DNA of 64,000 nt from Polychytrium aggregatum (taxonomy: Eukaryota > Chytridiomycota > Chytridiomycetes > Polychytriales). A program made the translations under genes and the position numbers. A model generated the notes under the pieces. The model worked only from the letters and a program-made list of their open reading frames with translations. It was not told the DNA's origin and ran no database searches. Location: positions 1-64,000 of the forward strand of contig NW_026516370.1 of the NCBI RefSeq assembly GCF_025602895.1, in the 5' to 3' direction. This document shows positions 29,612-35,934 of this stretch, piece after piece; the stretch's first letter is position 1; the number at the start of each line of letters is the position of its first letter.

Positions 29612-30156
29612 GTGCGACAGGATGTTGCGTCCATCGTTTTGGATGGAGTGAGACCGCAGTATGGAGACTAGGTGGTCTCCTGGTCGCTGTTGCGATGTCT
29701 GGGGCGGTTGAGGCAGTCGATGCCCCCGAAATACATACAGCCACGACACAGTGGACACAATAACCCTTCCTGCGCACACAGACAGCAGATGAGTTCGGAT
29801 TAACTTGCCACGGTTCAGGAGAGGCCCTTCTTGGCCAGGCTATATTCTTGCAGCGAACAAAGCGCAGGCGCTCATCATGTCCGCTCATTGGAGGCGAGAG
29901 CAGTGTTGCATCTCAGCATGTTTCCAGCAATGAGCATCATCTCAAGGGCAAGCGGGCAAAGCTGATGGAGGGAGTGGCCGCAAACACCAGGCCAGAGGAC
30001 TGCTGACAAGTCATCCGGCCCGGGGTGCGATTGTCGCTGCTGCGGTCCCACAGTTGACTCGTTTGAAATGGCTTTCGAATGGTGTGATGGTGGTATGGTG
30101 TGATGTTGATGATGTTGATGATGTTGATGATGTCGTTGGCACGAGGCGAACAGATG
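29612..30156. other. Convergent intergenic region holding SPS 3' UTR
   Basis: Lies between the stop of Noc3 (plus) and the stop of the selenophosphate synthetase (minus). It contains a GATGTTGAT microsatellite (about 30100-30135) and the candidate SECIS hairpin listed separately. Confidence 0.6.
29870..29950 (-). promoter_or_regulatory. Candidate SECIS element in 3' UTR
   Basis: Read on the minus strand, ATGA (29940-29937) is followed by a T, then GCTCATTG (29935-29928). Its exact complement CAATGAGC is at 29890-29883, followed by G and then GA (29881-29880). This places a tandem G.A/A.G quartet at the base of a nine-pair helix (eight Watson-Crick plus T.G). The helix can extend by GG/CC past two mismatches to an AAA bulge (29923-29921), 13 nt after ATGA. 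Above it a small hairpin is possible (GAG-at-GCA / TGC-t-CTC). This matches the form-2 SECIS plan. A lower helix I is not convincing by eye. It sits about 217 nt after the stop of the Sec-type gene. Confidence 0.45.
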
Positions 30157-32282
30157 CTACTCGGGGTCGAGGAGTCGCCGATAGTCGACGTCGACAACTT
30201 TGAGATCGTCGGATAGGCTTGCGGTCCGGTTGCCTGGGAGCCCGACAGCAGGGGATGCGAATCAACACATGCATGGAAAACACATGCGCGCAGGTTCGTC
30301 ATCATGCTCCGGAGCAACAGGTCAAACCATACCTTCCACGACATCGCCCACGATCCATGCTGGCCAGCCGTCAGTGTCCTCGATTTCTTGAACAAACAGT
30401 TTGGCTTTGTCCCGGGGCATGGCAATGAGCAGGCCGCCTACCCGTGACAGACAGTTTCCGAGGCGTTAGCGACATGAACGGTAGCGCAGCAGGGCAATCA
30501 TTCGGCCAGCTGAAGACTGGATGGACGAGCATGGGCGATGGGCGTCCCCCAGAAGTCGCATAGCGGGCTGTTGGAGATCGTTCAATATCCAGCACCCCGG
30601 ACGCCAGCCGCTGGACACAGTGCCTACCGGACGTTTCGGCTGAGAATCCCAGAGACAGCCGGAAACTAACTTTGGCGTCGACCTGCCACATTTTCTTGAT
30701 GACCGGCAGGGTGTGGATCATGAACGACACCTCGGCCTCCTGATTGGAGGCCAGGTTGCGCACATGGCCCAGGATGCCAAAGCCCGTCACATCCGTTGCT
30801 GCATGGGCGTCTGTAGATCCGGCTCGGAGTGTTAGTCGGGCCAGCGATATCGGCAGGGCTCAGGGCGCCGGACGCTCATCATGAACACATACCATATTTG
30901 TGCATCAGCCGAGCGCCGGTCTGATTCAAGCGAGCCATCGAGAGAATAGCGGTCTCGTATGCGCCTTCGACTGGATGGACATAGTTGGCCGATTCGGGAG
31001 GTCAGTGTGGGGTTTAGCAAGATCGAGGCCAAGTTCGCCATCGCCATCGAGCCCAGTTTGCCACATCACAAACCAACATGGTGGGCGACGATGCAACAGA
31101 TCAGCGGCTCCATGGTTCTACGGGCTGGAGCAGACGGACTCGACAAGTTACCTTCGTCGGGAGAGATGAAGTCGGCAACACGGGCGTACTTTTCCGGGTG
31201 GGTGGCCTGCATCGACAGCCACTGATGGGCGTTGACAGCGAGCTGGGTGCCCAGGGGCTTGGTCAGGACCAGGACATCGCCAGCGACGGCGTGGGTGGGC
31301 ATGATGATCTCGCTTGAGCTCACAACGGCCGAGGCGACGCCGCCCATCATGTACCCTGCATGGAAGCATACGGACCACAGTTAGGGTCGGCTGGACAGGC
31401 ATCTCGCTTGCCGATGTACAGCAATGCCAGGCAAGCACAATCGCAGAGAGCAGCACATACAGGGACTTTGTACGGTCTGGCCGCCGGTAACAGCTGTGCC
31501 AGCTTCTCTGGCGAGATCTGGAAGGCAGTGGATGGACGAGCCAGAATGAGCGGGTGAGCGAATGAGCGATCATGCAGCCGGACACATCGAGCAGGGTTGC
31601 AGGCGTAATTCAGATCGGCCGGCAGCTATAGCGGATCAGTCTCCGAGACGATGCAGGCCGCCTCGGCGCACACCCAGGACGACTGACGCACCGTGGAAGC
31701 CCCTCATGAAGTGGGTGGTGACGGCGTCCTTGACCTCGGGCTCCATTTTGCGGGCGACGCCCAGCAGCATGAGCATGTTGTCGCAGTCGGCTACGCCCAT
31801 GGCGTACAAGTCTGAAAGGACGTTGGCACAGGTGATGCGGCCCTGTAGGATGGCGCACCCGGAGCGTTAGAGCGTCATATCCCGAGCGTCATATCCCGAG
31901 CGTCGTATCCCGAGCGGCTGACCCTGGAGCCTGTGTCGTGCTGATGGGAAGCAGTAACCGACGCCACAAGCAACAAAGATGCATCGACGAGGTGCCCGAC
32001 CTGCACATATGGATCGTCGACAAGCGGATAGAAAAAGTCGGTCGTTTGGACCAGCGATATCCCTGGGAACCGAGTTGGGGTGATGCTCGAGTCCATGCCC
32101 GGGTGGGCGCCTTGAGGGGTGGTGGAGGTGATGGTGTTGAAGTTCGAAAGCCATTTCAGCAGAGTCTCCTGCGGGACCTTGCAGCCTCACCCTTTCATTT
32201 CAGCCCACTGGGTGAACTGAAAGCCGGCGGGAAGACCCATCCGGGCCGGGTCGAAGCGGCGCAAGGGCCCGGGAGCGACCAT
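30157..32282 (-). CDS. SPS2: Selenophosphate synthetase (SPS2/SelD), selenoprotein with in-frame TGA (8 exons)
   Basis: Makes monoselenophosphate, the selenium donor for Sec-tRNA, from selenide and ATP. Exons: 32282-32001, 31842-31692, 31517-31461, 31355-31152, 30970-30893, 30810-30628, 30437-30333 and 30233-30157, giving 379 codons including stop, i.e. 378 residues counting TGA as Sec. All GT-AG junctions keep phase. Codon 32 is TGA (32189-32187) in the context AEMKG-TGA-GCKVPQE, exactly the family's catalytic Sec/Cys site, with the essential Lys three residues on. Other family blocks: [83 protein letters not shown] and GDVVEGNRTASL. A normal stop cannot be meant, since more than 340 conserved residues follow. 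An ordinary annotation would truncate it or start downstream. Confidence 0.93.
31862..31915. repeat. 17-bp tandem repeat in SPS intron 1
   Basis: Three copies of gagcgtcatatcccgagc-type sequence within the first intron of the selenophosphate synthetase gene. Confidence 0.75.
32187..32189 (-). other. Selenocysteine codon (TGA) of SPS
   Basis: In-frame TGA at codon 32, between AAA GGG and GGC TGC AAG. In other SPS proteins this position is Sec, Cys or occasionally another residue and lies in the glycine-rich catalytic loop. Confidence 0.9.

Positions 32283-32622: not shown

Positions 32623-35934
<3,312 letters not shown>

Follow-up and report, generated by a model that had tools for sequence, protein, structure and literature searches.

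Introduction

Mariotti et al. reportedly showed in 2019 that early-branching fungi use selenocysteine (Sec), with nine such species. The other two of these Sec-using fungi, besides the Harpellales, are said to be Gonapodya, a chytrid, and Bifiguratus. A consensus SECIS is reportedly absent from most of the fungal selenoproteins in that work. The available text of one paper likewise counts nine Sec-using fungi (PMC6627142), and according to the accessible part of another, seven of the nine belong to Harpellales (PMC10386755). Sec machinery, SelenoH and expression are described for Zancudomyces, and SelenoH together with Sec machinery is given as common to Harpellales, both within the available portion of the article (PMC12611240). 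A survey from 2021, as far as its available text goes, presents fungi as being without selenocysteine (PMC8559351). Our search for literature joining Polychytrium with selenoproteins, in which subscription journals were thinly covered, found none, and Sec use in Polychytrium aggregatum has probably not been reported before. Because Sec use by early-branching fungi was already published in 2019, the finding described here is a smaller surprise than it may look at first.

The gene under study encodes a selenophosphate synthetase (SPS) of the chytrid P. aggregatum (Polychytriales). It is located in a window of 64,000 nucleotides (contig NW_026516370.1, positions 1 to 64,000), and positions given without a contig name refer to this window. 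We estimate at about 95% the probability that the locus is a functional SPS of the SPS2 type, i.e. one containing Sec. Like eukaryotic SPS2 (SEPHS2), the chytrid SPS is full-length, has a TGA before GCK in the catalytic loop and is followed by a stem in the 3'UTR; it differs from SPS2 in that Rfam does not recognise the SECIS-like element. With the early-branching fungi that use Sec, Polychytrium shares Sec machinery and a small number of selenoproteins. It differs from them in belonging to the order Polychytriales, in its two-haplotype gene set and in an SBP2 that is predicted to be joined to ankyrin repeats.

Results

Structure and identity of the SPS gene

The SPS gene is on the minus strand (32282..30157) and consists of eight exons and seven introns; translation of the spliced CDS gives a product of 378 amino acids. 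Exon 1 (32001..32282) begins with the ATG at 32282-32280 and contains the in-frame TGA. Exons 2 to 7 are at 31692..31842, 31461..31517, 31152..31355, 30893..30970, 30628..30810 and 30333..30437, respectively, and exon 8 (30157..30233) ends with the true stop codon TAG at 30159-30157. The introns are 82-190 nt long and all seven have GT...AG borders. There is a single internal stop in the 1137 nt of the spliced CDS, namely TGA at codon 32 (32187..32189, minus strand) in the context MKG-TGA-GCKVPQ, which becomes KG-U-GCKVPQ when the codon is read as Sec; the alternative frames of the CDS contain 11 and 4 stops. The earlier note had described an eight-exon, in-phase, full-length SPS whose sole in-frame stop is the TGA of codon 32 at the Sec/Cys site. 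Its coordinates and exon count turned out to be exact, and both the spliced CDS and the alignments confirm what it said of the stop.

On the plus strand a divergent open frame is seen from window position 32623 onward, some 340 bases away from the start of SPS. We presume that it resembles PRMT3, a guess that Pfam, run on this frame, did not confirm.

Against TIGR00476 SelD (cutoff 125) the SPS protein reaches 247.8 bits, and the full-length product contains both AIRS and AIRS_C domains. When the genome was searched with the AIRS Pfam model there was one match (on C223); the SPS of the window was missed because its exons split the domain. The best solved relative is SPS1 of PDB 3fd5, which we take to be the human protein (E 9.7e-116, residues 9-369), and the TGA is aligned to its Thr in KG-T-GCKVPQ. 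In the alignment of relatives, Amphimedon and Hypsibius have Cys in the TGA column and Aedes has Arg, and Oscarella reads KGW-CKVPQ in this region. Identity to named animal proteins with near-full coverage is 50-56% among the matches listed. Chance is excluded as an explanation for a full-length conserved gene in which the only stop falls on the Sec residue. We infer that the gene is expressed and that residue 32 of its product is Sec.

The deposited protein and the fungal relatives

The annotated P. aggregatum protein P0001 (316 aa) corresponds to SPS residues 63-378 with 100% identity over 84% of the query, and this identity supports the downstream exon joins. P0001 begins at Met63, beyond the TGA, just as the earlier note had predicted in saying that a gene caller would truncate or mis-start the gene. 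The same start would be expected if the locus were a decaying pseudogene, or if the TGA were a true stop followed by a restart at Met63 that yields a protein without the catalytic loop. Against decay or restart, exon 1 shares conserved sequence with SPS1 already ahead of the TGA, beginning at residue 9, the stop falls exactly on the Sec residue, the frame and the splice sites are intact on two haplotypes, and the genes of the whole Sec pathway have been retained (see below). We therefore regard both forms of this explanation as very improbable and read the locus as a functional gene for a Sec-containing SPS.

For a motif count of SPS relatives the best 120 of 5167 proteins were taken. The motif xGC[KR]V[PS] is present in 64 of these 120 and absent from 56, and at least one of the 56 (Oscarella) has a loop that is changed and not missing. 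Five fungal SPS proteins could be recognised by name among the matches listed: P. aggregatum, Synchytrium microbalum, Paraphysoderma sedebokerense, Endogone sp. and Jimgerdemannia flammicorona. CKVP is absent from all five, and three of them start exactly at MDS. The entries of Synchytrium, Paraphysoderma, Endogone and Jimgerdemannia (P0002, P0010, P0080 and P0109) are without the Sec/Cys loop. These four, which are known here from their deposited proteins, look as if they had been truncated at a TGA.

The earlier note had called the gene fungal, and this description holds: the closest named relative among the matches listed is Synchytrium (66% identity over 83%), and in a tree of 15 chosen SPS proteins, built with no outgroup, the five fungi form one side of a branch with 100/99 support. 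Polychytrium pairs with Synchytrium in this tree (99/98). The tree fits vertical descent of the gene.

The second haplotype

Numerous loci occur at two places of the genome with equal or near-equal scores, as in a two-haplotype assembly. We compared the DNA of such haplotype pairs for SPS, for the SELENOH-like gene and for SBP2. The second SPS copy is at C408:720043-722488, and a comparison over 2451 bases gives 99% identity. Its exons, TGA and SECIS-like stem are all identical to those of the window, and the differences are confined to intron 1, which has a deletion of 14 bases, intron 2, with a single substitution, and a repeat of the 3'UTR, into which 9 bases are inserted. In SPS intron 1 of the window, the 14 bases at 31891-31904 form one unit of a short tandem repeat, and this unit is absent from the other haplotype.

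As the TGA is found in two haplotigs, an error in a single contig is unlikely. If the TGA were an assembly error in place of a Cys codon, or if the contig came from another eukaryote, it would be hard to see why the same SPS TGA stands on contigs of 79 kb and 1.08 Mb, why two contigs carry another TGA at a Sec site in a SELENOH-like gene, why tRNA-Sec is also found on two contigs and why the SPS groups with Synchytrium. Nothing in the assembly speaks for error or contamination, which is, in our opinion, hardly conceivable, and we keep to a native SPS gene with a genuine TGA.

A SECIS-like stem in the SPS 3'UTR

Scanning and folding of the SPS 3'UTR pointed to a SECIS-like stem at 29879..29940 on the minus strand. 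Its layout is 5' ATGAT, an 8-bp helix (GCTCATTG/CAATGAGC), AAA, an upper hairpin and 3' GGAC; the AAA is on the 5' side of the apical internal loop, and the core is TGAT/GGAC. The scan covered 600 nt per 3'UTR and required a UGA/GA core that helix II closes, together with an apical bulge of AA or CC. It gave two matches in the SPS 3'UTR, 29940-29879 (-18.9 kcal/mol) and a weak one (-7.5). Dinucleotide shuffles reached an equally good score in 3 of 200 cases; the scan was devised once the helix had already been spotted visually, which makes this control lenient. Folding of 101 nt around the stem gave a z-score of -2.28 (4/200 shuffles as good) and a tight fold of 79 nt one of -1.65 (13/200); when folded by free energy, the core has its AUG paired to CAU. 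An Rfam search for such an element (1.5 kb, E up to 10) had no SECIS family among its matches. SBP2 is described as binding the GA_GA quartet of the eukaryotic SECIS in the available part of one article (PMC11227280). The stem at 29940-29879 would be the SECIS of the SPS gene, and the support for such an element is moderate.

Genes of the Sec pathway

A search for tRNA-Sec gave seven matches in the genome, two of them over the gathering score (68.3 bits versus 47), with a family that also matches all 14 control genomes and is over the cutoff in 5 of the 14. ARAGORN calls both top loci tRNA-SeC with the anticodon tca; the bodies are identical and lie on two contigs. The remaining five matches are tRNA-Ser.

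SecS is found at two places, and the matches cover profile positions 7-285 and 325-388 save for small gaps. One SecS exon has E 1.3e-43 to a solved SepSecS, presumably a mammalian chain, and E 3.4e-49 to TIGR03531. Domain III of eEFSec was found on C223, where PF21208 is above its cutoff; none of the 14 prokaryote controls matches this family. One of the five SecS matches in each copy includes a TAG, and the eEFSec domain match contains a TGA and a TAA, all of which we have taken for intron sequence. A stretch upstream of the eEFSec domain has eEFSec, which we assume to be the human chain, as its best PDB match (E 8.5e-35 versus 1.3e-11 for EF-Tu), and further upstream there is a P-loop stretch, NINIGLLGHVDAGKT.

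Matches on C10 and C346 were first taken as possible PSTK. Their frame reads MPLVIFCGYPSSGKTTRAL, which we believe to be typical of KTI12. As these matches are KTI12-like, we searched for PSTK with TIGR03575, which gave a match on C24 (30.7 bits, E 4.3e-6, below the curated cutoff); the same model also matches 2 of the 14 controls, Corynebacterium glutamicum among them. When two exons were joined by eye, the match to TIGR03575 improved to E 1.2e-15, still below the full-length cutoff. SBP2 is present at C190 and C169, and with an E limit of 0.1 its sole PDB match is the solved SBP2, presumably human (E 1.2e-26).

The earlier note had held that the rest of the pathway is kept, and a genome devoid of Sec machinery was the outcome it named as contrary to Sec decoding. 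All the parts that it listed are present: tRNA-Sec (UCA), SecS, PSTK, eEFSec and SBP2, the proteins being recognised from exons or domains in SecS, PSTK and eEFSec and largely modelled in SBP2. The SecS, PSTK and eEFSec genes are presumably intact.

A SELENOH-like gene and other candidates

A second TGA gene, SELENOH-like, is carried by contigs C79 (~249100-250000, plus strand) and C166 (the allele), and is marked by CTS-TGA and a match to Rdx. Joined at the splice sites, it reads ...FTIEH-C-TS-TGA-GMFKAASDAFSQ-ILREAFPKAIISVNPVPPRKGAFEVTLNV... The Sec exon, of 46 nt, encodes CTSU, which we take to be the motif of human SELENOH. The joined protein of 194 aa matches Rdx at residues 102-181 (E 4.8e-11); the genome Pfam search for Rdx found one SELENOH-like exon only, below the cutoff. 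Over the part of the alignment displayed, C79 and C166 do not differ in the coding stretch. A longer reading of this gene, with an uncertain start codon, has by eye a hydrophobic N-terminal segment, which could serve as a membrane anchor.

The open SPS frame itself, and nothing more, would agree with a change of the nuclear code by which TGA encodes an ordinary amino acid (e.g. Trp) and not Sec. However, both TGA genes found have their TGA at Sec sites, and the Sec machinery is present, which makes such a change exceedingly unlikely. Decoding of the TGA as Sec, as the earlier note proposed, is supported by the full set of pathway genes and by the TGA on two haplotigs.

The SECIS scan gave no match in 600 nt of the SELENOH-like 3'UTR, and Rfam reported no SECIS family on this gene. 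A relaxed scan of the same 3'UTR gave four matches, the best being a stem of -31.5 kcal/mol beside CUGAC and GGAG, and the fold of positions 2040-2130 of the C79 locus (L029) is very stable (z -2.41, 5/200 shuffles as good). We do not call this stem a SECIS because CUGAC and GGAG pair with each other in the free fold. The motif GAGATGATG...CTGGAAA is common to the SPS and SELENOH-like 3'UTRs and was set aside because the latter has no match in the scan.

A GPx search of the genome found eight matches at four places, with no stops. The GCUG-stop pattern of Sec thioredoxin reductase was matched 58 times as compared to 26 times in the reversed control; the TRR of this poorly chosen pattern also admits TGG, and the counts therefore carry no information on Sec thioredoxin reductase. 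TIGR01438 had 13 matches in the genome. The best of them, on C13, was rejected as a Sec thioredoxin reductase: it ends ...HPTAAEELVTMR-stop, a C-terminus that we assume to be typical of glutathione reductase.

A predicted SBP2 with ankyrin repeats

The oddest result is a predicted SBP2-ankyrin fusion that lies outside the window. On both haplotypes the L7Ae domain of SBP2 is followed by ankyrin repeats in one open frame (C190, ~126300-130500, minus strand; the other copy on C169), and the repeats are followed by an acidic and then a basic tail. The reading is that of a genomic open frame, and as such it is a predicted one whose N-terminal exon is not fixed. Ankyrin similarity is entered about 25 residues after the similarity to SBP2 ends, and the joined piece of 1236 residues matches Ank_2 with E 9.1e-23 and L7Ae with E 2.8e-6. 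Over the L7Ae domain, the ankyrin repeats and what lies between them, the haplotypes show no indel; their length difference is located in the later acidic repeat.

The chytrid protein and human SECISBP2 have in common an RNA-binding domain of the L7Ae type (138 residues, E 1.2e-26). Human SBP2 ends without ankyrin repeats, whereas the chytrid frame runs on into them, and to our knowledge an SBP2 with ankyrin repeats has been described nowhere else. Of the candidates in two protein searches that used SBP2, none of 171 and 1 of 7999 were returned, and the single protein returned is an ankyrin protein for which an L7Ae domain is not listed. Neither search returned any SBP2, and therefore they have no bearing on whether the fusion exists elsewhere. 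A literature search for SECISBP2 and ankyrin together found neither term in the title of any paper retrieved.

Discussion

Sec decoding at codon 32 of the SPS gene would proceed as follows. SPS would phosphorylate selenide to selenophosphate, PSTK would phosphorylate Ser-tRNA-Sec, and SecS would then convert it to Sec-tRNA-Sec. eEFSec together with SBP2, the latter bound to the element in the 3'UTR, would bring Sec-tRNA-Sec to the UGA. An SPS that makes selenophosphate and carries Sec itself requires its own product for its synthesis.

There is also a tentative and rather doubtful proposal that the recoding apparatus as a whole is altered. The L7Ae-ankyrin SBP2 may serve the UGA genes, at least one of which (the SELENOH-like gene) has no consensus SECIS and might use another stem of its 3'UTR, e.g. 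the one at L029:2040-2130.

With genes for the whole Sec pathway, a chytrid of the order Polychytriales joins the short list of fungi that use Sec. Gene calling hides Sec genes, as seen in P. aggregatum: its deposited SPS protein is without the Sec loop, and so are those deposited for four other early-branching fungi. The SBP2-ankyrin protein is the unusual part of the system and merits a separate study. One UGA gene with a SECIS-like element, one that is apparently SECIS-less and an SBP2 predicted to be fused to ankyrin repeats would make UGA recoding in fungi directly testable.
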